Below, piece by piece: positions 3,302 through 17,314 of a DNA stretch of 17,466 nt. Numbering within the stretch: position 1 is the first letter of the stretch; each line of letters starts with the position of its first letter. The stretch is from Desulfocapsa sp. Its GTDB lineage: Bacteria > Desulfobacterota > Desulfobulbia > Desulfobulbales > Desulfocapsaceae. Below the pieces are notes generated by a model, which saw nothing but the letters and a program-made list of their open reading frames with translations, searched no databases and was not told the origin of the DNA. Where the stretch lies: the NCBI GenBank assembly GCA_029934915.1, contig JAOZLI010000025.1, positions 1 through 17,466 on the forward strand, read 5' to 3'. The translations under genes were made by a program, and so were the position numbers.

Positions 3302-4279
3302 TCATTTCTTTTTTGATCGTACTGACTGTTTAGCGAGTAGTGATTGCAACTTCCAAGGAGACGACAAACAGGCACGGGACTGAGAACAGGTAGACATAAC
3401 ATCACAAAACGCCAGAAATTCAGCAAGTGTGTCGTTCATCTTCAGGTTTTTCCGTGATATAACCCGTAGTTTACGCTTCATATTTACAGCCTCAATCTGT
3501 AAGGTTTTAAGCCAGCCATGTTCTACTTCGCGACATACAGTAAGAGATGATAAACACGCCAGCCCAACACCTGATTCGACAGCTTTTTTTATTGCTTCAG
3601 GATGCCCCATTTCCATGATCACATTAATCTGATCAAGATAATCTTTCATTTTTTCGCGAAATATAGCTACGGTTCCAGAGCCTTCTTCTCGCATGATCCA
3701 CCGGGTATTGACAAAATCATTCTCCACGTCAAATATCTTTTTATGAGCCAAAGGATCTGTGGGACCTGCAATAACCACAAGCTCATCTTCAAACCAGAGC
3801 CTTTCCACGGTATCAGGATTTCTGACAGGTCCTTCCACAAAACCCACATCAACCTTCCCGTCAAGCACAAGACTTTCAGCATATCGCGTATGATGAACAA
3901 GCATATTAATATGAACCTGTGGATGCATTCGCTTAAACGCACCGATTAAATAAGGAAGGATGTAATCACCAATTGTGGTGGAAGCAACGACATTAATTGT
4001 ACCACTAAGCGTGTCATTTTTTTCTGACATGACATTTTCAACATTACCTACCTGACAAATAATTTCTTTGGACAAGGGCAGCAGATAACGACCACGCTCA
4101 TTTAATAAAAGACTCCTTCCATGACGATCAAACAATGATCCACCAAGCTGATTTTCAAGTTCAGCAAGTGCCATACTGACAGCAGACTGGGTTACGAATA
4201 GTTTTTTACTTGCCTTTGTAACCTGAGCAGTTTCCGCTACTGCTATAAATATTTCTAATTGTCTCAAGGTGATAGACAT
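3302..4279 (-). CDS. LysR-family transcriptional regulator, YeiE-like
   Basis: DNA-binding regulator with an N-terminal winged helix-turn-helix (about residues 3-62, with LRQLEIFIAVAETAQVTKAS and the recognition-helix region VTQSAVSMALAELENQLGG) and a C-terminal periplasmic-binding-protein-like effector domain. From my recollection of family sequences it is closest to YeiE: shared landmarks are STTIGDYILPYLI, VDVGFVEGP, LWFEDELVVIAGPTDPLA, MREEGSGT and MGHPEAIKKAVESGVGLACLS. At 325 residues it is about 30 longer than YeiE because of a Ser/Lys-rich C-terminal tail. An AGAAGG ribosome-binding site precedes the ATG. The gene is divergent from nuoA across a 273-bp gap, a common arrangement for LysR regulators and their targets. 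Its effector and targets are not known from sequence. Confidence 0.9.
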   Translation of the reverse strand: MSITLRQLEIFIAVAETAQVTKASKKLFVTQSAVSMALAELENQLGGSLFDRHGRSLLLNERGRYLLPLSKEIICQVGNVENVMSEKNDTLSGTINVVASTTIGDYILPYLIGAFKRMHPQVHINMLVHHTRYAESLVLDGKVDVGFVEGPVRNPDTVERLWFEDELVVIAGPTDPLAHKKIFDVENDFVNTRWIMREEGSGTVAIFREKMKDYLDQINVIMEMGHPEAIKKAVESGVGLACLSSLTVCREVEHGWLKTLQIEAVNMKRKLRVISRKNLKMNDTLAEFLAFCDVMSTCSQSRACLSSPWKLQSLLAKQSVRSKKK

Positions 4280-4552: not shown

Positions 4553-4987
4553 ATGGAGCTTCAATTTTCTGATTTTCTCTACCGTGACAATGTCTTATGG
4601 ATCACGGCTTTCACTCTTGGTGGTCTTGCCTTTGCGCTGGGCCCCATCGTTATTGTGTATCTGCTGATGCCTCGCGGCACCAGACAATTTGAGAACAATA
4701 ACAAACAGGCTATCGAATGTGGAATGGTCCCTATTGGAGATTCCTGGGTTCGTTACAACTCTGTATTTTTCCTTTACGCATTAATTTTTCTCGCATTTGA
4801 TGTAGACGTTCTTTTTCTCTTTCCTGTTGCTCTTGCCTACAACAGCAAAGAATTACTGGACATGGGTATCGTCTACCGGGATTTCATTGAAGTTGTTATT
4901 TTTGTTGGAATCTTATCACTCGCAATCGTCTACGCATGGATCAAGGGAGTCTTCAAGTGGGAACGCAGAACGTACCTTCGCCGTTAG
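4553..4987 (+). CDS. nuoA: Complex I subunit A (NADH-quinone oxidoreductase)
   Basis: Small membrane subunit at the junction between the peripheral and membrane arms, next to NuoH and NuoJ, where it helps shape the quinone channel. It has 144 residues and three membrane helices (about 15-38, 69-95, 110-131). The long loop between helices 1 and 2 carries the family's [19 protein letters not shown] motif with the conserved Cys at 56, and helix 2 holds the paired acidic residues D83 and D85 (AFDVDVLF). An AAGGAG ribosome-binding site lies just upstream of the ATG. It is the first gene of the operon and overlaps no earlier gene. Confidence 0.97.
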
Positions 4988-5475
4988 AACCAATACCATC
5001 GTCAGTTGTTCAGTTTGCTGCTGCCGACAAACTCATTAATCTGGGTAGGGTCAATTCATTTTGGCCCCTCACCTTCGGTATTGCCTGTTGTGCCATCGAA
5101 ATGATGGCCACCGGTTGTGCAAGATTTGATATGTCTCGATTTGGTGCAGAGGTTTTTCGCCCATCCCCAAGACAAGCTGATCTAATGATCGTAGCTGGTA
5201 CCGTCACCAAAAAAATGATGCCTGGTATCAAGGTATTATACGATCAAATGCCCGAGCCCAAATGGGTTATGGCACTTGGTAACTGTGCCATCTCTGGTGG
5301 CCCTTTTGCCTTTGAGGGACAATACTCCATTGTGCTTGGTGCAGACACCTTCCTTCCTGTTGATATTTATATACCAGGTTGTCCGCCACGTCCTGAAGCT
5401 CTCCTACAGGGTATTCTTGACCTGGAGAACAAAGTATCCGGTTGGAACCGTTGGAAAGATCCTGAAAAAGCCTGA
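4957..5475 (+). CDS. nuoB: Complex I subunit B, cluster N2 protein
   Basis: Carries the [4Fe-4S] cluster N2 that passes electrons to quinone at the interface with NuoD. Ligands are visible as the tandem cysteines C44-C45 (ACCAIEMM), C110 (LGNCAISGG) and C142 ([11 protein letters not shown]). I choose the GTG at 4957 because AAGGGAG (4943-4949) sits seven bases upstream, giving 172 residues. An in-frame ATG at 4936 gives 179 but has no ribosome-binding site. With the GTG start the gene overlaps nuoA by 31 bp, implying tight translational coupling. The core sequence is fully conventional. Confidence 0.95.
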
Positions 5476-5489
5476 AGAGGAATTGGAAC

Positions 5490-6041
5490 ATGATAAAAGA
5501 AAAGATGATACAGGCTCTTTCGGAACTCTTTCCAGACCCCGAGCCGATTGTAGAAGAACCTGTCGTTGAAGCCGCTGAAGACGAAGCTGCAGATGATGGA
5601 AAGAAAAAGAAACCAAAGAAAAAAGTAGAGCCACCTCGAGTGAACGGTGTTCTTGAGCGCGACCATGCTGCTCACGGTTATGACATCGACGTACAACTCG
5701 ACCCCGGTGAACTTTTAGCTGCTGTCATGATCATTGATAAGGCAGGGTTCTTTATTGAAAGTATCACGGGTGTTGACTGGATTAAAGAAAAACAGCTTGA
5801 GTCTGTCTACGATTTCAGTCGTTATGACCACGACCTTTGTCGAATTGTTGTTCGTACACGCACTCCACGTGACAACCCAAGCGTTCCAACTATTTCAAAA
5901 ATATACCCGGGTGCCAGCTGGCACGAGCGTGAAACACACGATTTCTTTGGTATCAAATTTGAAGGGCATCCGCACCTTATCCCGCTTCTCTTACCTGAGG
6001 ATGCTGACTTTCATCCCCTCTTAAAGGATTTCAAACCATGA
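5490..6041 (+). CDS. nuoC: Complex I subunit C (30-kDa subunit) with charged N-terminal linker
   Basis: Peripheral-arm structural subunit that packs against NuoD and NuoB. The family core spans about residues 54-183, including the diagnostic C-terminal block beginning YPGASWHERETHDFFGI (139-155) and ending PLLLPEDADFHPLLKDFKP. Residues 15-50 form an unusual low-complexity linker, first Glu/Asp/Pro-rich and then a lysine run (GKKKKPKKK), which is not part of the standard fold. A GAGGAA ribosome-binding site precedes the ATG, 14 bp after nuoB. The stop overlaps the nuoD start as ATGA. It is a separate gene, not fused to nuoD as in E. coli. Confidence 0.95.
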   Translation: MIKEKMIQALSELFPDPEPIVEEPVVEAAEDEAADDGKKKKPKKKVEPPRVNGVLERDHAAHGYDIDVQLDPGELLAAVMIIDKAGFFIESITGVDWIKEKQLESVYDFSRYDHDLCRIVVRTRTPRDNPSVPTISKIYPGASWHERETHDFFGIKFEGHPHLIPLLLPEDADFHPLLKDFKP

Positions 6042-7156
6042 GTGGACCAATTCATATCCGAAAGGACGAAACCTTTACCCTAAACGTGGGACCGCAGCAT
6101 CCGGCAACTCATGGTGTTCTTCGGGTAAAGATGGAAATGGATGGTGAATATATCGTTAAGGCCGAAACAGTCCTTGGTTATATTCATCGTATGCACGAAT
6201 TGATGGGTGAAAATAGAACCTACCCACAGGTTCTACCCAACCTCAGTCGTCTTGATTATCTTGGTGCCATGGGCTACACCCACGGACATGTTCTAGCAAT
6301 AGAACGTGCAGCAGGTATAGAAGTCCCGGAACGTGCTGAGTATATTCGTGCGATTATGGTTGAGTTAAACAGAATATCATCCCATCTCTTCTGGTTTGGT
6401 GCTTTTGTTATGGATCTTGGCGGTTTCACCCCTCTTATGTATGCCATTCAAGATCGTGAACATATTCTTGATCTTATGGAAGCGGTAACCGGATCACGTC
6501 TCACATACTGTTACTTCCGTTTTGGCGGATTATATAATGATGTAGACGACGATTTTATCAATGCTACCCGTGCCGTTATTCCAATGTTACGAAAGTCGTT
6601 GAAGAAATATGATGCACTGGTAACCGGCAATATCATTTTCAGGAAACGCCTTGAAGATATCGGGCCCATATCCGCTGAAATGTGTCGGAAATATGGTGCC
6701 ACAGGTCCTGTCGCCAGAGGTGCAGGCCTGGACTTTGATGTACGAAAGAACGAACCCTATTCTGTGTATCCTGAATTTGATTTTGATATCCCTGTGTATC
6801 ATGAGTGTGACTCATTAGCACGCTACAAGGTACGCATGGATGAGATGGAGCAGTCATTGCGCATTATTGAACAGGGGCTCGACAAATTGCCTGACGGGCC
6901 AATTATGCCCAAGAAAAAACCAAAACTTATTAAACCTCCAGTAGGAGATTATTATCAGGCTGTGGAAACAGCTCGTGGCAGTTTTGGTATTAGAATTGTT
7001 AGTGACGGTACTAAAAATGCCTATCGCTTCAAACTTCGCTCTCCGACGTATTCCAACATGTCTCTCTTTGACGAGGCATGTGAGGGCATGATGATTATGG
7101 ATGCGCTCGCTATGATGGGGAGTCTTGATCTGGTAATACCTGAGATTGACAGGTAA
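6038..7156 (+). CDS. nuoD: Complex I subunit D (49-kDa subunit, quinone site)
   Basis: Forms the quinone-binding cavity with NuoB and is related to [NiFe]-hydrogenase large subunits, without their nickel ligands. Its 372 residues are slightly short of the usual 390-420. The N-terminal GPQHPATHGVLR block supplies H25, and SRLDYLGAM supplies Y74, equivalent to the quinone-headgroup His and Tyr known in Thermus Nqo4. Other blocks are ELNRISSHLFWFGAFVMDLG, the GARGAG-like region VARGAGLDFDVR, and the C-terminal LRSPTYSNMSLF followed by the invariant ending EIDR. It overlaps nuoC by 4 bp. No NuoE, F or G gene follows: the next gene is nuoH. Confidence 0.97.
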   Translation: MSGPIHIRKDETFTLNVGPQHPATHGVLRVKMEMDGEYIVKAETVLGYIHRMHELMGENRTYPQVLPNLSRLDYLGAMGYTHGHVLAIERAAGIEVPERAEYIRAIMVELNRISSHLFWFGAFVMDLGGFTPLMYAIQDREHILDLMEAVTGSRLTYCYFRFGGLYNDVDDDFINATRAVIPMLRKSLKKYDALVTGNIIFRKRLEDIGPISAEMCRKYGATGPVARGAGLDFDVRKNEPYSVYPEFDFDIPVYHECDSLARYKVRMDEMEQSLRIIEQGLDKLPDGPIMPKKKPKLIKPPVGDYYQAVETARGSFGIRIVSDGTKNAYRFKLRSPTYSNMSLFDEACEGMMIMDALAMMGSLDLVIPEIDR

Positions 7157-7168
7157 GGGAGAAGTCGT

Positions 7169-8155
7169 ATGAGTTTAACAATACTAAATGCGGTGGTTGC
7201 AGTTGTTGCTGCCATTGCCTTTGCCGCAGCAAATGCTGCGTATCTTGTCTGGGCAGAGCGTCGGGGAGCAGGTCGAATTCAGCGTCGTCCCGGCCCAAAC
7301 GTTAATGGCCCCTTAGGACTATTACAGCCACCATGTGATGGTATTAAGCTGATGACCAAACAGCTGATGATACCCGGTGGTGCTGACAAAGCCTTGTTTA
7401 TGGTGGCACCGGTTCTAGCAATGGCTCCAGCAATTATGAGTTTTGTCACCATTCCATTTAGTGAAACCATTGTCGCTCACTCCATGAACGTTGGGGTGCT
7501 GATGATATTTGCCTTTGCCTCCCTTGGTGGTATGTCTATCCTCCTCGCGGGTTGGGGCTCACGCAATAAATATGGTGTCATGGCTTCAGTTCGTGCTGTC
7601 TCCCAGAATATATCCTACGAAGTCCCAATGCTTATCACAGTTATCACCATCGTGATGATGGCAGGTACCATGAACCTTAAAGAACTGGTTGCTGCGCAGG
7701 CTGGAGGTATATGGAATTGGAACCTAATCCCATCACTGTCCAGTCCTCTGATGCCAGTATCCTTTCTCATTTTCTTTATCTGCTCACTCGCAGAGACCAA
7801 CCGGGCTCCATTTGATCTTGGTGAGGCTGAAAGTGAGTTAGTAGCTGGTTTCCATACAGAGTATGGAAGTATGGGATTCGGTCTGTTCTTTATGGGAGAG
7901 TACGCAAACATCGTTATTGGAGCAAGCCTGATTACCATCCTGTTTCTTGGTGGCTGGGATTGTCCACTAGGACTCTTCCCTGGTGTCTGGTGGTTCCTAC
8001 TGAAAATTTACATGCTGATCTTCTCATTTATTTGGATTCGCTGGACTTTCCCACGAACAACCATTTATGGACTGCTCAATTTGAGCTGGAAGATACTTAT
8101 TCCCATCTCACTGTTTAACCTGCTGCTCACAGCCGGATTACTGAAGGTATTTTAA
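7169..8155 (+). CDS. nuoH: Complex I subunit H (membrane anchor for the quinone module)
   Basis: Integral membrane subunit that bridges NuoB/NuoD to the proton-pumping arm and forms part of the quinone tunnel (E-channel). It has 328 residues with about eight membrane helices. Family landmarks are WAERRGAGRIQRRPGPNVNG (28-47) and the acidic cytoplasmic loop starting at AETNRAPFDLGEAE (208-221), which continues with ESE and a GFHTEYG turn. A GGGAGA ribosome-binding site lies in the 12-bp gap after nuoD. No truncation is seen. Confidence 0.97.
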   Translation: MSLTILNAVVAVVAAIAFAAANAAYLVWAERRGAGRIQRRPGPNVNGPLGLLQPPCDGIKLMTKQLMIPGGADKALFMVAPVLAMAPAIMSFVTIPFSETIVAHSMNVGVLMIFAFASLGGMSILLAGWGSRNKYGVMASVRAVSQNISYEVPMLITVITIVMMAGTMNLKELVAAQAGGIWNWNLIPSLSSPLMPVSFLIFFICSLAETNRAPFDLGEAESELVAGFHTEYGSMGFGLFFMGEYANIVIGASLITILFLGGWDCPLGLFPGVWWFLLKIYMLIFSFIWIRWTFPRTTIYGLLNLSWKILIPISLFNLLLTAGLLKVF

Positions 8156-8156
8156 T

Positions 8157-8627
8157 ATGGGTGCCTATTTTAGCGAAATATTTCTTGGACTCAAAAGCCT
8201 GGCCATTGGTCTGGGGATAACGTTCAAGGAATTCTTCAAACCTGTGGTTACGGTTCCCTATCCGTACAAAACTCTCAAAATGAGTGACCGCTATCGTGGT
8301 CATATCGAATTGATAGAAAATGAGGATGGGAAACCCAAATGTGTAGCCTGTGGTATGTGTCAGCGAGCCTGTCCATCAGGTTGCATAAGCCTTGCTTCAA
8401 AATCAGTTGAATATGAAGTTGAAGTGAAAGGCGAAATGAAAACTAAAAAGAAAAAGGTCTTAACCAAATACGACCTGAACTTCACTACCTGTTCTCTATG
8501 TGGTCAGTGTGTGGAGAGTTGTGGCTTTGGAGCCATCACTTTTTCTAAGGACTACAATCTTGCTTCATTTCGTAAGGAAGATTTCCATTTCGACCTTCTT
8601 AATAGATTGAAGGAGAGAAACGCATGA
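8157..8627 (+). CDS. nuoI: Complex I subunit I, two [4Fe-4S] ferredoxin-type subunit
   Basis: Carries clusters N6a and N6b, which pass electrons to N2 in NuoB. Two CxxCxxCxxxC motifs are intact: C62/C65/C68/C72 (CVACGMCQRACP) and C112/C115/C118/C122 (CSLCGQCVESCG). In the second motif the usual Pro after the last Cys is Gly. The N-terminal amphipathic helix (about 5-25) is the expected membrane-surface anchor. Between the clusters lies a lysine-rich turn (KGEMKTKKKK). The ATG begins one base after the nuoH stop. With NuoE, F and G absent, NuoI would be the entry point for electrons from a soluble donor. Confidence 0.96.
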   Translation: MGAYFSEIFLGLKSLAIGLGITFKEFFKPVVTVPYPYKTLKMSDRYRGHIELIENEDGKPKCVACGMCQRACPSGCISLASKSVEYEVEVKGEMKTKKKKVLTKYDLNFTTCSLCGQCVESCGFGAITFSKDYNLASFRKEDFHFDLLNRLKERNA

Positions 8628-9196
8628 ACATAATGGACCAAGTAAATTCCTTGCTTCCAGGTTTCCTCACTGCTGATGGATTCGCAGGGGTTGCTGATGA
8701 AGCTGCAGGAATTGTCTTTCTCATAATGCTTGCCACTACAATTATTGGTGGAATTATAGCATGTAATTCGAAACGACTTGTTCGTGCAGTAGCTGGTTTG
8801 GCTCTCTGTTTTGTTGGAGTTGCCGCCATCTACTACTATTTGAATTCACCCTTTGTTGCCATGATGCAGATGTTAATCTATGTAGGAGCGGTTTGTATTA
8901 CCATCGCCTTTGCCATCATGCTTGCTGCACCAGAAGACAAAGTAAAGCCTGGACCTTCCGGCCCCTTAAGCGGTCCGCTTGGTTTAATTACTGCGGGTCT
9001 TGCAACCATCGGAATGATTGGACTAGCCGTAAAAACAGTTTTCCCTGTCATGCCCAAAATAAATATGGGTTCCGTTCAACTCATCGGTGTTAAATTACTG
9101 ACTAATTATTCCATGGTCTTTGAGCTTGTTTCAATTGTGCTGCTCATCGCCATCCTGGGATCTCTAGTTATTGCCCGTCACGGAAGGAGCAAATAA
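8624..9196 (+). CDS. nuoJ: Complex I subunit J
   Basis: Membrane subunit whose third helix moves during turnover and links quinone chemistry to pumping. It has 190 residues and about five membrane helices. The typical region LNSPFVAMMQMLIYVGAV around 73-90 is clear, including the Y-V-G-A block of TM3. The protein has roughly 25 residues before the first helix, a longer N-terminus than in E. coli. The ATG overlaps the nuoI stop as ATGA and has an AAGGAGAG ribosome-binding site. An ATG three codons later is an alternative start. Confidence 0.95.
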   Translation: MNIMDQVNSLLPGFLTADGFAGVADEAAGIVFLIMLATTIIGGIIACNSKRLVRAVAGLALCFVGVAAIYYYLNSPFVAMMQMLIYVGAVCITIAFAIMLAAPEDKVKPGPSGPLSGPLGLITAGLATIGMIGLAVKTVFPVMPKINMGSVQLIGVKLLTNYSMVFELVSIVLLIAILGSLVIARHGRSK

Positions 9197-9523
9197 ATGT
9201 CGCTTTTAAACCTTCATAACGATCTAAACACATATCTTGTTCTTGCAGCAATCCTGTTTGGAATGGGTATTTATGGATTGGTTACCAGAAAGACACTTGT
9301 CGGTATGCTGATTGCTTCCGAGTTAGTGCTTGTTGCATCGTCCATAAATATTATGGCGTTTAACAGATTCACTGCTCCCGACCCTGCCATTGGCCAGATT
9401 TTCGCTCTATTTATTATGGCAATTGCCGCAGCAGAAGCTGCTATTGGCTTGAGTATCACCATTGCAGTATATCGTAATTACAAATCCGTCGACATCGAAG
9501 ATATCGTCGACCTTCAAGGTTAG
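9197..9523 (+). CDS. nuoK: Complex I subunit K
   Basis: Three-helix membrane subunit homologous to MrpC that relays charge between NuoJ and the antiporter-like subunits. It has 108 residues. The two buried glutamates needed in the family are present: E42 (IASELVLVASSINI) and E80 (AIAAAEAAIGLSI). The C-terminus SVDIEDIVDLQG is of the usual type. The ATG starts immediately after the nuoJ TAA, preceded by GGAAGGAG. Confidence 0.97.
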   Translation: MSLLNLHNDLNTYLVLAAILFGMGIYGLVTRKTLVGMLIASELVLVASSINIMAFNRFTAPDPAIGQIFALFIMAIAAAEAAIGLSITIAVYRNYKSVDIEDIVDLQG

Positions 9524-9541
9524 GAAAGAGGAACATCTGAC

Positions 9542-11023
9542 ATGGAAATTCAAACGGTAAGTTCCGTAAAACTTCTCGTCGCGCTTCTTGTTCCACTCAT
9601 TGGCACACTCGGTGTGCTCTTTGTTGGCAAAAACGAGAATGTACGTGAAGGGGTTTCATCTGCAGCATCGGTAATTCTTCTCCTGATTGTTGCTTCAATG
9701 ATTCCAACAGTCTTGAGTGGTAAAGTTCTCGTGTACCATATGTTTACAATACTGCCCGGGATCTCTGTCACATTGCGGGCTGATGGCATGTCCATGATCT
9801 TTGCGCTCGTAGCATCGTCGCTTTGGACCATAGCAGTTTATTACTCCCTGGGATATATGCGAGCCCATGCTGAACATGCACAGACACGATTTAATGCATG
9901 CTTTGCCCTTGCAATCTTTGGCGCCATTGGTGTTGCATTTTCTGACAACTTCTTCACTATGTATCTCTTTTATGAGATCGTCTCTGTCTGTACCTATCCA
10001 TTGGTTGCTCATGCTCAAGACAAGGCTGGTTATGAAGGAGCCCGTAAATATATCGTTTACCTGACGACTACAGCTAAGCTCTTTTTACTACCTGCTCTAA
10101 TTCTGATTTATGTAATCACTGGAACACTCGATTTTCCACATAATATTTCAGATGGTATGTTTTCGGGAGATACCCAATCCTGGATTGTGATCATGCTGTA
10201 CATCTTCTGTCTCTTTGGCTTTGCCAAAAACGGTGTAATGCCATTTCATCACTGGCTCCCTGGAGCCATGGTCGCACCAACGCCCGTATCAGCTTTGCTC
10301 CATGCTGTGGCCGTTGTTAAAGTTGGTGTGTTCTGTACTACACGTACCATGCTCTATGTTTTTGGTGTGGACACCATGCATGCACTCAATCTTGGTATTC
10401 CCACGGCCTACTTCGTCGGGTTTACCATTATCATGGCATCTGTTCTAGCTCTATCAAAAAATAATCTTAAAGAACGGCTGGCTTACTCTACAATTTCTCA
10501 GCTCTCTTATATTATTCTTGGTGTAGCGTTACTCACTCCTGCGGCAATCGATGGTGGACTTATTCACATCGTTAACCATGCGTTCTCAAAGATTACACTC
10601 TTCTTCTGTGCCGGTGCAATTATGATTGCCCATCACAAAAAAGACCTCTCTGAAATGGGAGGGCTGGGTAAAAGCATGCCGATCACCTTTGCCTGTTTCT
10701 TTATCGCTTCACTTTCCATGATTGGTGCTCCTCCCGTTGCCGGATTTGTAACCAAATGGAACCTACTAGTCGGATCTATTCAGGCTGATCAGATCGGGAT
10801 ACTCCTTATCTTGATAACCTCGACAATATTAAATGCCGCTTACTTTATGCCGGTTACTATTAAAGCATTTTTCGGAAAGCGTCCGGAAGGTGAAACATAT
10901 CAAGGTATCCAGGAAGCACCACTCTCAATGCTTATCCCCATTGTAATAGCATGTACGATTTCGGTGATTCTCGGTATCTTCCCTAACTTTATGATGCAAT
11001 TTGTAAGGATGGTGACAGGATGA
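9542..11023 (+). CDS. Complex I antiporter-like subunit, NuoL/MrpD-type without C-terminal arm (L1)
   Basis: One of four antiporter-like membrane subunits in this operon, with 493 residues and about 14 membrane helices. Key residues of the proton path are intact: E145 in TM5 (FYEIVSVCTYPLV), K229 in TM7 (FAKNGVMPFHHWLPGAM), H254 and K260 in TM8 (LLHAVAVVKVGVF), and K350 in the later broken helix (HAFSKITLFF). The APTPVSALLHA block is NuoL/MrpA-like. The protein ends right after the last helix, so it lacks the long lateral helix and final anchor of canonical NuoL. I therefore leave the symbol empty although databases may call it nuoL. Its stop overlaps the next start as ATGA. Confidence 0.93.
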   Translation: MEIQTVSSVKLLVALLVPLIGTLGVLFVGKNENVREGVSSAASVILLLIVASMIPTVLSGKVLVYHMFTILPGISVTLRADGMSMIFALVASSLWTIAVYYSLGYMRAHAEHAQTRFNACFALAIFGAIGVAFSDNFFTMYLFYEIVSVCTYPLVAHAQDKAGYEGARKYIVYLTTTAKLFLLPALILIYVITGTLDFPHNISDGMFSGDTQSWIVIMLYIFCLFGFAKNGVMPFHHWLPGAMVAPTPVSALLHAVAVVKVGVFCTTRTMLYVFGVDTMHALNLGIPTAYFVGFTIIMASVLALSKNNLKERLAYSTISQLSYIILGVALLTPAAIDGGLIHIVNHAFSKITLFFCAGAIMIAHHKKDLSEMGGLGKSMPITFACFFIASLSMIGAPPVAGFVTKWNLLVGSIQADQIGILLILITSTILNAAYFMPVTIKAFFGKRPEGETYQGIQEAPLSMLIPIVIACTISVILGIFPNFMMQFVRMVTG

Positions 11024-11271
11024 TTGCGAATCTAATCGACTACCTATCCGACCGGTTACCCTTGGTAACAAAGGTCTGCTATGTGGCCATGGCCTTCATA
11101 GTATTCTGGAGTATGTCTGTGGATACATCCCACGCACATACCTGGGCAGAAAAAATGATACCAGGATTCTGGTCACTCTTTGGAATTTCCAGCTGTGCCG
11201 TCGTTATTATGGTGGCAAGATGGTATGGCAAGAGTGGTATCCAGACCCGGGAGGACTATTATGACAATTAG
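11020..11271 (+). CDS. Small two-helix membrane protein between two antiporter-like subunits
   Basis: An 83-residue protein with two predicted membrane helices (about 14-32 and 48-66), a connecting loop DTSHAHTWAEKMIPGFW rich in His/Trp, and a charged tail ending TREDYYDN. It is not a known core complex I subunit that I can name. Its ATG overlaps the stop of L1 by 4 bp, and its end overlaps the start of L2 by 11 bp, so it is translated as part of the operon. I recall similar small proteins beside such antiporter genes in other Desulfobacterota, but this is memory, not a search. A plausible role is as an accessory or spacer subunit between L1 and L2. Confidence 0.85.
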   Translation: MIANLIDYLSDRLPLVTKVCYVAMAFIVFWSMSVDTSHAHTWAEKMIPGFWSLFGISSCAVVIMVARWYGKSGIQTREDYYDN

Positions 11272-13048
11272 TTTTATGCATCCGGCACTTATAATGATCG
11301 TGGGAGCACTCTTGCTGCCATTGGTCCGTGGGCCGTTTCGCAAACCATTTATGTTTCTTGTTCCTCTGCTAACGTTTATTGATGTAATTTACCTTAGTCA
11401 ACATCCTGGAACTTACGGTATCTTCCAATTTATGGATTGGGAATTAACCTTCGGTCGTGTCGATCGGTTGTCAATGATCTTTGCCTTTATCATGGCGCTT
11501 ATGGCTATCATTGGTACCATTTATGGTATGCATGTAGAAGATGAATGGCAGCATATGGCCGCTTGGTTTTATGTAGCTGGATCATTGGGTGCTATATATG
11601 CTGGTGATTTTATAACTCTCTTTGTCTTCTGGGAAATGATGGCTTTTGCCTCTACTTTCCTTATCTGGGCAAGAAAAGATACTGAGGCATTGGAAGCTGG
11701 GTATCGTTACATTCTGGTGCATACCTTTGGCGGTGTCGTTCTTCTCATAGGATTTGTTCTGCGCTATCAGGCCACGGGTGATCTCAGTTTTGATCTCTTA
11801 AACGTTCAAAATCCCGAGATATATACCTGGCTGATTATGATTGGCCTCATGCTTAATGCCGCTGTTCCACCAGTACACTCCTGGTTGCCTGATGCATACT
11901 CTAAGGCCACCGCGATTGGTGCAGTTTTTATGTGTGCGTTCACAACCAAAACAGCTGTATATACTTTGATCCGCAGCTGTGCTGGATTTGATGTACTGAT
12001 TTATCTCGGTGTCTTTATGGCCATCTACGGGATTATTTATGCTGTAATGGAAAATGATGTACGCAAACTTCTTGGTTGGGAAATTATCTCTCAGGTTGGA
12101 TACATGGTTGCAGCCGTCGGTATAGGTACATCCCTTGCCATCAATGGTGCCTGTGCCCATGCTTTTGCCCACATCCTTTACAAAGGTCTTCTCTTTATGG
12201 CAGCTGGTGCTATTCTCACCACCACTGGCAGACAGAAACTTTCTGAACTCGGAGGCTTGTATAAGAAAATGCCGGGGACAATGATTTTTATGCTTATTGG
12301 CGGACTCGCAGTATCAGGTCTTCCACTGATGTCAGGATTTGTCTCTAAATCTATGATCATTTCAGCAGCATTCGAATCACATATACTCTGGGCTGGTTTT
12401 GCGCTCACTTTTGTATCAGCTGGCACATTCCTTGCCGCCGGACTAAGGCTCCCTTACCTACTCTTCTTTGGCAAAAATAACTGTTCTGAAGAAACCTGGG
12501 AGAAGGCACAGGATCCATCCTGGAATATGCAACTGGCCATGACCATAGGCGGGTTCCTCTGTATCTTTATTGGTTGCTATCTTCCCTTTTTGTACAACAT
12601 GCTGCCTTACACCGAGATATCATATCACCCATACGGTGCATATCATCTCAGTGAAACAATACAGATTATGGCATTTACAGCTTTTGGATTCTTCATGCTT
12701 CGTAAGTATATTATGCCAAAAAATACAATTAGTTTAGACCTTGATTGGTTTTATCGCATGGGTGGCAGAGCATTTCTCTGGACTGTTAAAAACCCACTGC
12801 AATACTTTGACACTGCCCTTTCTAAATTTTACAAGTCTGTTGGTATCAGTTGCTTGATGGAAACTTCTAAATTCTGGTCCTGGTTTGACTGGAATGGAAT
12901 TGATGGTGTAGTTGACGGCACAGCACGTTGTGTGCAGGCTATTGGTCGCAGAGTGACAATTGTTCTGCAACGTGGACAGATTCAACAAACTATTTGCTAC
13001 ACGGTATCTTTTGCAGCCGTACTCCTTGTAGCTTACGTCTGGTTATAA
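11261..13048 (+). CDS. Complex I antiporter-like subunit with NuoL-like C-terminal arm (L2)
   Basis: Second antiporter-like subunit, 595 residues. The start at 11261 is chosen for its GGGAGG ribosome-binding site six bases upstream; an upstream in-frame ATG at 11180 would add an unlikely 27-residue extension. The antiporter core has E125 (FVFWEMMAFAS), K230 (AFTTKTAVY) and K308 (HILYKGLLF). The TM7 position usually held by Lys is N199 (LMLNAAVPPVHSWLPDAY), a type I remember from MrpD-like proteins of this subgroup. After a helix at about 465-482 come roughly 90 polar or amphipathic residues and a final membrane helix (577-594), resembling the lateral helix and terminal anchor of NuoL. It is thus the best candidate for the distal subunit. 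Confidence 0.93.
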   Translation: MTISFMHPALIMIVGALLLPLVRGPFRKPFMFLVPLLTFIDVIYLSQHPGTYGIFQFMDWELTFGRVDRLSMIFAFIMALMAIIGTIYGMHVEDEWQHMAAWFYVAGSLGAIYAGDFITLFVFWEMMAFASTFLIWARKDTEALEAGYRYILVHTFGGVVLLIGFVLRYQATGDLSFDLLNVQNPEIYTWLIMIGLMLNAAVPPVHSWLPDAYSKATAIGAVFMCAFTTKTAVYTLIRSCAGFDVLIYLGVFMAIYGIIYAVMENDVRKLLGWEIISQVGYMVAAVGIGTSLAINGACAHAFAHILYKGLLFMAAGAILTTTGRQKLSELGGLYKKMPGTMIFMLIGGLAVSGLPLMSGFVSKSMIISAAFESHILWAGFALTFVSAGTFLAAGLRLPYLLFFGKNNCSEETWEKAQDPSWNMQLAMTIGGFLCIFIGCYLPFLYNMLPYTEISYHPYGAYHLSETIQIMAFTAFGFFMLRKYIMPKNTISLDLDWFYRMGGRAFLWTVKNPLQYFDTALSKFYKSVGISCLMETSKFWSWFDWNGIDGVVDGTARCVQAIGRRVTIVLQRGQIQQTICYTVSFAAVLLVAYVWL

Positions 13049-13106
13049 TTCCTGACTAACTGAATAACATAATTTCGGACAAATAAGAAACTAAGGAACA
13101 CTGGAA

Positions 13107-14633
13107 ATGGATCAACTACTTTTCAATCAACAGTACCCACACATTTTGAGCACGCTTATTTTCCTGCCATTGGCAGGAGCAATGCTGCTGCTCTTTGTAA
13201 GAAACGAATCCTTTGCCAGATACTGGGCTCTTGGAGTGACCATCGTAACAGCAATTATATCAATTCCTCTACTGAGTGCATTTGATAGCGGGACTTCCAA
13301 ATTTCAATTTGTAGAGAAGGTCACTTGGATTAAGTCTCTTAACATTGACTACGTTATAGGGATTGACGGGATCTCCATCCTGCTCATAATGCTTACCACG
13401 CTGATTATGCCCCTTTGTGTACTTGCATCATGGACATATATCAAAACAAGAGTACAGGCATTTATGGTTTGCCTTATGATTATGGAAACAGCAATGCTTG
13501 GTGTTTTCTGTGCCCTTGATTTTGTATTATTCTATGTTCTCTGGGAAGCCATGCTGATACCTATGTATATGCTTATCGGTATATGGGGTGGTCCTCGGAA
13601 GATCTATGCATCCGTCAAATTCTTTTTGTATACTCTTGCAGGCTCCGTTATGCTGCTTGTTGCCATTATCTGGCTCTATATTAATAATGGATACAGCTTT
13701 TTTATCCCGGATATGATGTGGCAAAATTACTCAAGCACTGCGCAGATATTCCTTTTTCTTGCCTTCTTTCTGGCCTTTGCCATTAAGGTACCTATGTTTC
13801 CTTTTCATACATGGTTACCGGCAGCACATGTTGAAGCGCCCACAGCAGGTTCAGTCATCCTTGCCTCTGTTTTATTGAAGATGGGTACATATGGCTTTCT
13901 GCGATTTGCAATTCCCATTACCCCTGAAGCAACCATGCTCCTGGCCGAACCCATACTTTGGCTCTCCATAGCCGGTATTATGTATGGCGGTTTTACGGCC
14001 CTTGCTCAAAATGATATGAAAAAGCTTATTGCCTACTCTTCAGTTGGTCATATGGGTTTCGTAACACTTGGTATTTTTGTCTTGAATACCAGAGGCGTTG
14101 AAGGTGCAATTTTGCAGATGATTAATCATGGAATTACCACTGGTGCACTCTTTCTCTGTATCGGTATGATCTACGAGAGAACCCATTCTCGAGAATTGAG
14201 TGATGCGATGGGACTTGGCAAATATATGCCAATTTATGCTACATTTCTCGCATTTTTCTCACTTTCATCATTTGGTTTTCCTGGGACCAATAGTTTCGTT
14301 GGTGAGTTGCTGATTATTGCAGGAACTTTTGAACACTCCACTGTTCTTGCACTGGCATGTATCCCTGGCGCAGTTCTGGCTGCGGCTTACATGCTTCGTA
14401 TGCTGCAAAAAATAATCTGGGGTGACACTAACAATCCTGATCAATCAAAGATGGTAGATCTTAATGTGCGTGAAATTGTAACACTTGCCCCTTTTCTGTT
14501 TTTTGTTTTCTGGATTGGCCTGGGCGCACAACCATTTTTAGATATTATTCATGTAAGTGTAGAGAATCTGCTAAATAATTACCATGGTTTCACAAATCAA
14601 GCCGTGGCAATTACAGAACTTATTATCCATTAA
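13107..14633 (+). CDS. nuoM: Complex I antiporter-like subunit M
   Basis: Third antiporter-like membrane subunit, 508 residues and about 14 helices, with strong NuoM character. The proton-path residues are E147 (VLWEAMLIPMYMLIG), K227 (FAIKVPMFPFHTWLPAAH), K258 (VLLKMGTYGFLR) and the NuoM-typical late glutamate E400 (TNSFVGELLI). The block QNDMKKLIAYSSVGHMGF is also diagnostic. An AAGGAA ribosome-binding site lies near 13095, within the 58-bp gap after L2, the largest gap in the operon; I see no terminator or clear promoter in it. Confidence 0.97.
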   Translation: MDQLLFNQQYPHILSTLIFLPLAGAMLLLFVRNESFARYWALGVTIVTAIISIPLLSAFDSGTSKFQFVEKVTWIKSLNIDYVIGIDGISILLIMLTTLIMPLCVLASWTYIKTRVQAFMVCLMIMETAMLGVFCALDFVLFYVLWEAMLIPMYMLIGIWGGPRKIYASVKFFLYTLAGSVMLLVAIIWLYINNGYSFFIPDMMWQNYSSTAQIFLFLAFFLAFAIKVPMFPFHTWLPAAHVEAPTAGSVILASVLLKMGTYGFLRFAIPITPEATMLLAEPILWLSIAGIMYGGFTALAQNDMKKLIAYSSVGHMGFVTLGIFVLNTRGVEGAILQMINHGITTGALFLCIGMIYERTHSRELSDAMGLGKYMPIYATFLAFFSLSSFGFPGTNSFVGELLIIAGTFEHSTVLALACIPGAVLAAAYMLRMLQKIIWGDTNNPDQSKMVDLNVREIVTLAPFLFFVFWIGLGAQPFLDIIHVSVENLLNNYHGFTNQAVAITELIIH

Positions 14634-14661
14634 TAGCGTTTAACCGAAGAAGGTAATACAA

Positions 14662-16074
14662 ATGCAATTTCTCCCTGAGTTAGCACTGTTGGGTGCAGGC
14701 CTTGTCATCTTTATGGTGAGCCTTGGTAAGACCAATGCTACCACCACAAGAAATATAGCCATTGGACTTGGTGCTGCAGTTTTTGGCGCCACGCTTTTGA
14801 GCTATTGCGCCGAAGGAAAGCTCTTTTATGGGGCCTACCAGGTTGACCTGTATTCTCAGGTTTTTAAAACCCTGATCGCAGGGTCCATGCTTGTGGTACT
14901 AATCCTCGGCCAAAATTTAAAGGGTGTCTCCGAGAAGGTGCATCCAGAGTACTACCTCTTTCTTTTTATGAGTGTACTTGGCCTTATGATGCTGGTTTCA
15001 AGTGTTGAACTGATTTCCATTTTCGTTGCACTTGAGCTTTCATCCTTTGCTGTCTACATTATGGTTCCCATGCGTGATGATGAAGGGAAGATCAGGTTCC
15101 AAATGGAAGCAGGAATCAAATACCTGCTCTTTGGCGTAACTGCAACCGGATTTATGCTTTTCGGTATGAGCTATATGTATGGCCTCACCGGCTCTACTGA
15201 CCTTGCTACTATTATTACACAATATTCCACCATGTGGACGCACCCTGCATATGTAATTTCTATGATGATGGTCTTGGCCGGGTTCTTTTATAAACTGGCG
15301 ATATTCCCCTTTCATTTCTGGGTACCAGATGTTTATGAGGGAGCCTCCAACGAGACCACAGCGTTTATAGCAACTGTTCCAAAACTTGCAGGAACAGCCA
15401 TGCTGATTAGACTTATTAGTCATATCACCGGAGACGGTCAGGTCATTACTAACGTTCTGTTAACATGTGCTGTTGCTTCCATGTTTTATGGTAATCTCTC
15501 AGCCCTTGTTCAAAAAGACGTAAAACGGATGCTCGGGTTCTCAGGAATAGCACATGCTGGTTTTGTTCTCCTTGGTATCCTGACCTTTCAAATCACTGGT
15601 TTTGCAAACGCCATGTATTACATCATTGGCTATGTAGTCATGAATCTTGCCTGCTTCCTTGTTATTTGTAATGTTTCTTCAAAAGGCGAGAATGTGATGA
15701 TAGAAGACCTATCCGGTCTTCACAAACGATCACCACTAATGGCCTTCACCTTAGCAGTAGGTCTCTTCGGCTTAGCCGGTATTCCCCCATTCGTTGGTTT
15801 TATGGGGAAATTTATGCTCCTCACCGGTGCTTTAAAGGAGGGATATATGGTCGTAGTTATCCTCGCAGCAATTAATACTGCAATCGCGATTTACTACTAC
15901 TTGTCTGTTATACGTGTTACCTATTGCAGTGAACCTGAGGAGCGAGGACTGGTTTCGCCGACTATGATGACAAGTGTCACTTCTGTATTTCTACTTATCA
16001 TTATTGTCGTCATGGGAGTTTCTCCTCAAAGATTTGTAGACTTTGCATCAACTGCCGTGCAGACAATTATGTAG
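14662..16074 (+). CDS. nuoN: Complex I antiporter-like subunit N
   Basis: Fourth antiporter-like subunit, expected nearest to NuoK. It has 470 residues and about 14 helices. Proton-path residues are E125 (VALELSSFAVYIMV), K211 (FFYKLAIFPFHFWVPDVYEG) and K241 (TVPKLAGTAML). NuoN features include the VPDVYEGAS block and the QKDVKRMLGFSGIAHAGF segment. A GAAGG ribosome-binding site lies upstream of the ATG, 28 bp after nuoM. It is the last gene of the operon, followed by an intrinsic terminator 32 bp downstream. Confidence 0.97.
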   Translation: MQFLPELALLGAGLVIFMVSLGKTNATTTRNIAIGLGAAVFGATLLSYCAEGKLFYGAYQVDLYSQVFKTLIAGSMLVVLILGQNLKGVSEKVHPEYYLFLFMSVLGLMMLVSSVELISIFVALELSSFAVYIMVPMRDDEGKIRFQMEAGIKYLLFGVTATGFMLFGMSYMYGLTGSTDLATIITQYSTMWTHPAYVISMMMVLAGFFYKLAIFPFHFWVPDVYEGASNETTAFIATVPKLAGTAMLIRLISHITGDGQVITNVLLTCAVASMFYGNLSALVQKDVKRMLGFSGIAHAGFVLLGILTFQITGFANAMYYIIGYVVMNLACFLVICNVSSKGENVMIEDLSGLHKRSPLMAFTLAVGLFGLAGIPPFVGFMGKFMLLTGALKEGYMVVVILAAINTAIAIYYYLSVIRVTYCSEPEERGLVSPTMMTSVTSVFLLIIIVVMGVSPQRFVDFASTAVQTIM

Positions 16075-16303: not shown

Positions 16304-17314
16304 ATGAAAAACTTAGAGTTACGATCATCACTTATTAAATCAGGACTACTGCTAGGAATCTTCATCTTCTTAATCTACGCATTTGCAGTAGACGATTCTG
16401 GAGGAATCGGTGGTACCATCGGTTCTTTGTTTGCAGGTGTTACTTTTCTTATTGGTTTGAGTATCGCCATTGTTGTTAGTGTTGCAATTATGTTTGGTGT
16501 CTATTTTGGTATTCTGTATCTTTACAATCCTGCAATTTCTGCAAAAACCTTTGCTGAACTTAAGGTCTGCATTTCTGATGTATCCGAACAACTCTGTAGC
16601 TGTGATTCGTGCGGCATATCGGTCGCTACTTCAGTTACCCCAGTTATAACTGCCGATGATTTACAGCCACTTCAGGCTGCTCAGGATACCTTATCAGGAC
16701 AGCTTTCCAACGTAGGGTCAACAGTAGACTCTATTCAGAAAACTCTTACCGCACTTAACGCCTCAATCAGTACTGCTCAGGAGAGCATTGATGCAATTGG
16801 TGAGAAAACTGCCACTATTGAAGAAGAAATTGGAAATAAAGCCCCTGCTGATGCGATAGAAGATGTATCAAAAAAACTGACGGCAGACATCGCAACCATT
16901 AAAACTATGGTTCAACCTCTTAGTGACAAAATTGCCAGCCTTGAAGAAACAGTTGCCGGAATAGATCCTACCTCTGGTTCTGAAGAAACAAACAAGGCCA
17001 TAGAGGCACTCCAGAAGGATCTTGAAGCGCTAAAAAAAAAGTTAGCTGAAAAAGAAGCCAAAACTGAGTCAGCTGTTACAGCTGATAAAGAAACAACTGA
17101 AGATACAGACCATAAAATCCTATCTTATTTTACTAAGAAGGCCGATGAGAAGAAGTTTGTTACCTTGGTGAAGGATAGCGTAGAACAGAATATGACTTAT
17201 GCCCAGGTAGACGAATACCTGAATAAATCATTATCTAAAGCTGCCGCAAAGGTTATTTCAGAGCACCCTTCCCTTACTAAAGATTATATAAGGGAGTGCA
17301 GGCAAAAAAGCTAA
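16304..17314 (+). CDS. Membrane-anchored coiled-coil protein of unknown function
   Basis: I do not recognise this 336-residue protein. Two hydrophobic segments at the N-terminus (about 11-28 and 42-74) anchor it in the membrane. They are followed by a cysteine group C89, C98, C100, C103 (CISDVSEQLCSCDSCG), which could bind metal or form disulfides. Residues about 118-260 are rich in Ala, Ser, Glu, Lys and Ile with heptad-like spacing, suggesting a long coiled coil. A Lys/Glu/Thr-rich linker leads to a compact C-terminal part (about 270-336). A strong GGAGGAATA ribosome-binding site precedes the ATG. It has its own terminator and a candidate promoter, so it is a single-gene unit independent of nuo. 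Roles in envelope scaffolding or protein tethering are possible but not shown. Confidence 0.88.
   Translation: MKNLELRSSLIKSGLLLGIFIFLIYAFAVDDSGGIGGTIGSLFAGVTFLIGLSIAIVVSVAIMFGVYFGILYLYNPAISAKTFAELKVCISDVSEQLCSCDSCGISVATSVTPVITADDLQPLQAAQDTLSGQLSNVGSTVDSIQKTLTALNASISTAQESIDAIGEKTATIEEEIGNKAPADAIEDVSKKLTADIATIKTMVQPLSDKIASLEETVAGIDPTSGSEETNKAIEALQKDLEALKKKLAEKEAKTESAVTADKETTEDTDHKILSYFTKKADEKKFVTLVKDSVEQNMTYAQVDEYLNKSLSKAAAKVISEHPSLTKDYIRECRQKS

Follow-up and report, generated by a model that had tools for sequence, protein, structure and literature searches.

A complex I operon of Desulfobulbales with four antiporter-like genes and an Mrp-related block in place of nuoL

In the green complex I of rhizobia, two MrpD-like subunits replace NuoL and adjoin NuoM and NuoN (PMC9040806, citing Degli Esposti & Martinez-Romero 2016). 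In the 2M complex I of Nitrospira, a second NuoM brings the antiporter-like subunits to four while NuoL is kept, and the lateral helix contains an additional stretch (PMC9040806, PMC7784846), and two extra NuoM/NuoL-like genes lie behind mrpD in a Nitrospira (PMC7784846). Complex_I_3 of Ca. Manganitrophaceae shares the two MrpD-like subunits and differs by two NuoM, five antiporter-like subunits in total and an MrpD2 that exceeds the rhizobial one by an insert of 26 residues (PMC9040806). Here we analyse a stretch of 17,466 nucleotides from a Desulfocapsa draft genome (contig JAOZLI010000025.1; hereafter “the window”), which holds thirteen genes in the order nuoA-B-C-D-H-I-J-K-L1-x-L2-M-N at 4553-16074 on the + strand, with no nuoE, nuoF or nuoG among the open reading frames (ORFs) of the operon. 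The operon has the layout of green complex I, in an N-module-free form in Desulfobulbales; the layout as such is already known from root-nodule bacteria. Unlike 2M complex I, it has a single nuoM and no nuoL. We consider it likely that the product is a complex I that has no N-module and carries the Mrp-related block L1-x-L2 in place of NuoL, with L2 and its lengthened helix at the tip of the membrane arm and coupling as proposed below.

The closest described counterpart lies on a plasmid of Sinorhizobium meliloti, where the same K-L1-x-L2-M-N block is found; Sinorhizobium plasmid copies are about 54% (L1) and about 47% (L2) identical to those of the window. The two clusters differ in content and order: the S. 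meliloti cluster includes nuoEFG and reads J-K-L1-x-L2-M-N-A-B-C-D-E-F-G, I and H being encoded on the opposite strand, whereas the Desulfobulbales cluster runs from A to N and has no E, F or G. The layout is not mentioned in the passages seen of PMC8879329, PMC13047784, PMC12361115 and PMC9426454, and among the matches listed no title or abstract dealt with it in Desulfobulbales.

Public genomes were scanned with L2, and the best 80 of 83 loci were analysed, comprising 72 complex I loci and eight Mrp operons. Three of the complex I loci are from Ruegeria and 69 from records named Desulfocapsa, Desulfobulbus, other delta-proteobacterial or unclassified bacteria; the closest named relatives of L2 among the matches listed are Desulfocapsa metagenome-assembled genomes and other Desulfobulbales. 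In the set of 72 complex I loci, the order K-L1-x-L2-M-N occurs 54 times and an unbroken A-to-N run 44 times. L1-x-L2 stands between nuoK and nuoM in 60/60 loci holding both flanking genes (two of them with L2 in pieces), and the remaining twelve lack one flank, the contig ending there where inspected. Apart from the three Ruegeria loci, none of the 72 showed nuoE, nuoF or nuoG in the retrieved flanks of at most 10 kb. Misassembly or chance as the origin of the arrangement is ruled out by the 72 complex I loci in separate records. Among 56 genomes (our own and 55 relatives), the L2 family NF009310 is above cut-off in 51, a figure that should not be read as the number with complex I because the family also covers Mrp D3, and canonical NuoL is above cut-off in 26.

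The four antiporter-like genes are all intact ORFs on the + strand: L1 (9542..11023, 493 aa), L2 (11261..13048, 595 aa), nuoM (13107..14633, 508 aa, canonical NuoM with a glutamate in transmembrane helix (TM) 12) and nuoN (14662..16074, 470 aa, canonical NuoN). Their products score 208.7 (L1), 159.4 (L2), 263.6 (M) and 216.7 (N) bits against PF00361 (cut-off 21.5), which bears out the claim of a sequence-only reading of the window that there are four complete antiporter-like subunits. NuoM and NuoN pass their own families, TIGR01972 with 608.8 bits (cut-off 263.8) and TIGR01770 with 365.5 bits (cut-off 332.6). The same reading had taken L1 and L2 both as L-type, and here it has to be corrected. 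Both miss the NuoL family TIGR01974 (cut-off 407.5) with 225.8 and 170.1 bits, respectively, and pass families named antiporter subunit D: NF006236 for L1 (790 bits vs 663) and NF009310 for L2 (730 bits vs 564).

A maximum likelihood tree of 78 rows agrees with these assignments. References for MrpA and MrpD were taken from two annotated plasmids and one genome (L130), since no protein in 79 genomes from the phylum scored above the cut-off of the MrpA family TIGR00940. L1 groups with D2 (support 99/94) and L2 with D3 (100/100) of Mrp operons that hold three D-type antiporter genes, and these are the nearest non-complex-I kin of the pair in the tree. NuoL and MrpA form separate clades, with NuoL outside both the L1 and the L2 clade; NuoM and NuoN are clades of their own (100/100 each), and neither L1 nor L2 falls within the former. 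Window, relatives, Ruegeria and S. meliloti share a single L1 clade (100/96) and a single L2 clade, the latter with weak support (89/45). The approximately unbiased (AU) test rejects L1+NuoL (p 1.2e-39), L2+NuoL (p 0.031) and a single clade of L1 and L2 (p 0.0105); the tested groups were picked after inspection of the tree and long branches are present, so that the last two values are soft. Because families, tree and AU tests agree, the pair is neither two NuoLs nor a recent duplicate. Two other origins were considered and dismissed. The AU tests speak against a recent tandem duplication of a single gene, and an extra NuoM as in 2M complex I is contradicted by the presence of one NuoM only and by the position of L1 and L2 outside the NuoM clade, with MrpD-type NCBIfam matches. 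Structure comparison with Foldseek and VIA-align recovered the antiporter fold common to the set and did not separate NuoL-type from MrpD-type.

The key residues set L2 apart. The TM5 glutamate is present in L1, L2, M and N, and the TM7 lysine in L1, M and N, while L2 has Asn199 (Asn198 when counted in a 594-residue translation starting at 11264, which served for the residue, length, tree and model analyses of L2); the statement that all four carry the glutamate and “mostly” the lysine therefore holds, with L2 as the exception. In L1, E145, K229, K260, K350 and K405 are each kept in 72/72 cases, and because this set of pump residues is complete, L1 is most likely a full pump. A panel of 24 sequences has the TM7 lysine in 21/21 other antiporter-like proteins and asparagine in 3/3 members of the L2 family. 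In 80 sequences of the L2 family (Mrp D3s included; sequences of 400 aa or fewer were excluded here and in the L1 count), the TM7 position is asparagine in 79 and serine in one (L048), the TM5 glutamate is kept in 79/80, the TM8 lysine in 80/80, the TM11 lysine in 79/80 and the TM12 lysine in 80/80. Across the tree set, TM7 is asparagine in 14/14 L2/D3 rows and lysine in 63 of the 64 others, the remaining one being a NuoM row with leucine in that column. A TM6 histidine (residue 154) and Arg149 each occur in 14/14 L2/D3 rows; that histidine is found in 0/64 others, and judging from helix positions it would lie close to the place of the missing lysine. L2 therefore does without a lysine held to be needed, in bacteria as well as in an archaeon, with its remaining key residues strongly conserved.

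Length was the other distinguishing feature of L2. Its lateral (amphipathic) helix region (12728..12979, + strand, about residues 490-573 of 595, as placed by length counts and model) is followed by TM16. Residues were counted from a D-x-x-Y anchor before the helix to an ID motif and to the C-terminus. Complex I L2s with the motif (61 of 67 examined) have 50 residues between anchor and motif in 60 cases and 51 in one, compared with 25-26 in nine canonical NuoLs and 29 in one (n=13). The L2 region is therefore longer by 24-25 residues than nine of the ten measurable NuoLs and by 21 than the tenth (M. intracellulare, anchored and matched with looser letters), and the extension lies after the DWFY anchor (Y498) and before the IDGVVD motif. 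From anchor to C-terminus there are 95-99 residues in 66/67 L2s, including 97 in the window, and 68-74 in 12/13 canonical NuoLs; S. meliloti L2 has 98. NuoL rows without a usable value were L103 (mis-anchored) and E. coli and L132 (no ID motif); among the L2 rows, L076 lacked the anchor, five lacked the ID motif and seven under 555 aa were excluded. A few QxG distances matched the wrong place, and the D3 of a haloarchaeal plasmid had no anchor. A stretch of 24-25 helical residues corresponds to about the width of one antiporter subunit. The longer lateral helix of L2 is what would be expected with L1 built into the arm. The lateral-helix insert of 2M complex I is similar in length to the 26-residue insert of PMC9040806, where, after Chadwick et al., an insert of this kind is postulated to fit a fourth subunit; the rhizobial pair is described there as lacking the insert, in a comparison with Manganitrophus and not with NuoL.

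Between L1 and L2 lies the small gene x (11020..11271, + strand, 83 aa), encoding a predicted two-helix membrane protein. It overlaps L1 by 4 bases, as in 57/65 loci of relatives, and L2 by 11 bases, the L2 start being an ATG at 11261 preceded by GGAGG. x is present in all 65 complex I loci holding L1 and L2, always between them, and in 68 of the 80 loci overall, with 79 to 102 residues. Among 5.8 billion proteins, a word-limited search gave at least 82 homologues at E 0.001; those with names are hypothetical proteins, save two automatic names that look stray. No Pfam family was above cut-off (best DUF6542, 15.6 vs 27 bits), and no NCBIfam family either. AlphaFold2 predicts a hairpin of two helices (13-33 and 50-74) with a mean predicted local distance difference test (pLDDT) value of 79 and a predicted template modelling (pTM) score of 0.43. 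Seven of the eight Mrp loci have, between D2 and D3, an ORF that is matched by a profile of x (E 1e-9 to 8e-4 within this small set), the match in the eighth, L098, reaching just E 0.08. We regard x as a candidate subunit of the complex that is annotated as hypothetical.

From the gene content and order, the families, the residues and the helix length we infer an assembled complex, and its positions, pumping, electron donor and direction are conditional in what follows. Outward from the quinone site the subunits would be arranged as H-A-J-K, N, M, L1 and, at the tip, L2, whose lateral helix, about one subunit longer, would extend back across L1 and M as far as N. The small protein x may pack at the L1/L2 junction. 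Quinone would be reduced by electrons from a donor other than NADH via NuoEFG of this operon, and coupling would follow the row of charged residues at the centre of N, M and L1. In L2, the kept TM5 Glu, TM8 Lys, TM11 His/Lys and TM12 Lys could belong to a rewired half-channel. Several observations weigh against the proposal. D2 and D3 of the eight Mrp loci (L088, L091, L093-L098; order E-F-G-DUF4040-B-C-D1-D2-D3) are homologues of L1 and L2; the D3 tails of two further Mrp operons, L120 and L121 from two Desulfobulbales genomes, are 99 and 100 residues long without an ID motif, which speaks against a strict rule linking helix length to subunit number, tail length alone being no proof; the model of L2 has helices at 494-526 and 530-567 in a block with pLDDT of about 40-58, an unreliable shape; and our own genome (3.06 Mb, 606 contigs) is only 83% complete, which makes absences there weak.

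Since the L1-x-L2 block is found both in Mrp operons and in complex I loci, it occurs in two enzyme families, and the three genes might accordingly form a separate Mrp-like antiporter that is merely co-transcribed with nuo, leaving a complex I without NuoL. Besides the eight Mrp loci, a haloarchaeal plasmid (L116) shows the E-F-G-DUF4040-B-C-D1-D2-D3 order too, and the Desulfobulbales clusters L120 and L121 hold the same gene set (E, F, G, DUF4040, B, C, D1-D3). The Mrp operons are, however, unlike the window in the presence of MrpB, C, E, F, G and DUF4040: fifteen tblastn queries for these six kinds (1e-3) matched nothing in the window and none of the 72 complex I loci, whereas all six kinds were matched in 10/10 Mrp loci. 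Also, the constant place of the block between nuoK and nuoM, the absence of any other NuoL above cut-off in our own genome and the tail of complex I L2s, which exceeds that of eight of ten Mrp D3s (70-82 residues), speak against a separate antiporter. We consider this explanation, which the sequence-only reading had named as its refuting case, quite improbable; the placement of an extra subunit at the L position, as that reading proposed, is supported by the conserved block, the missing Mrp neighbours and NuoL, and the longer lateral helix. Within the complex, the order K-L1-x-L2-M-N, read like canonical K-L-M-N, would put L1 at the tip and L2 beside M, and no longer L2 helix would be needed. 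But L1 lacks a lateral helix, its chain stopping after the final antiporter helix, and the additional 24-25 residues of L2 would go unneeded in that order, so that we hold this arrangement to be unlikely.

A more serious competitor of the rewired half-channel concerns the number of pumps. L2 could be a brace that bears the lateral helix and closes the tip, with N, M and L1 pumping and a canonical ion count per two electrons. Its TM7 asparagine, nearly invariant in the family, fits such a role, and the excerpts of PMC4938563 report from earlier work that NuoL K229A and E144Q cut complex I activity severely. Yet the other pump residues of L2 are kept beyond what a pure brace would seem to need, the TM6 histidine is a possible substitute for the TM7 lysine, and the Mrp complementation assay in the same excerpts of PMC4938563 found K229A almost without effect. 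The brace remains a possibility of some weight, though we do not favour it. Because L2 lacks the TM7 lysine, a fourth subunit does not imply a fourth pump; because TM7 Asn goes together with TM6 His while the other key residues are kept, we lean slightly, and without strong conviction, towards conduction by L2 through a rewired half-channel rather than a mere bracing role. We further suggest, tentatively, that L1-x-L2 may be a portable tip cassette of Mrp and complex I that replaces a single MrpA/NuoL-type subunit, with a lysine-less L2 using TM6 His for TM7 Lys in a rewired half-channel and x as a structural subunit not described before.

These results extend the two-MrpD complex I from rhizobia to an order of sulfur-cycling anaerobes, which gain little energy and for which a difference of a single ion per electron pair matters. 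In L2, evolution has produced an antiporter subunit that does without a lysine regarded as essential, which opens the number of pumps to testing, and the length of the lateral helix offers a sequence-only hint at the number of subunits in the arm. If the cassette reading were true, it would provide a natural experiment on the residues that complex I needs for pumping. The helix extension of L2, its TM7 Asn/TM6 His pair and x between L1 and L2 are new beyond the sequence-only reading; the unannotated small x and the lysine-less tip subunit L2 are the parts worth specialist attention.

As to electron input, PF01512 (NuoF) had no match in our own, 83% complete genome and is found somewhere in 26/56 genomes. 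According to excerpts of PMC12142623, a nuo cluster without EFG is strongly upregulated in Desulfurivibrio dismutans during sulfur disproportionation, with 11 subunits listed for locus tags RS03515-03575. If these tags step by five, the range would hold 13 genes, a number consistent with one “NuoL” standing for L1, x and L2.

The genes upstream of the block, nuoA, B, C, D, H, I, J and K (4553..9523, + strand), encode the quinone module and the proximal membrane arm. nuoA-D were identified via Pfam/NCBIfam and nuoI via NCBIfam; H, J and K were assigned from reading, position and tblastn synteny in relatives and not from a family search. nuoA and nuoB overlap by 52 bases (4936-4987); as L022 and L023 show a 49-base overlap of their tblastn matches, this is probably real rather than a wrong start. 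Two other contigs of the genome carry related genes: C115 holds a cluster of three antiporter genes on a short contig (L118, 1403-6131; HyfB-like 30%, L1-like 39%, D1-like 31%), the HyfB-like member having alanine in the TM5 glutamate column, and C353 a HyfB-like fragment cut by the contig end (L119, 2-925; 44% identity), possibly from a hydrogenase-type membrane arm. Upstream of nuoA, on the - strand, lies a gene for a LysR-type regulator (3302-4279) that may control the operon; 32/80 loci have a match ahead of nuoA. Behind nuoN, a 336-aa membrane-anchored, coiled-coil-like protein is encoded at 16304-17314, with a relative in 16/80 loci.

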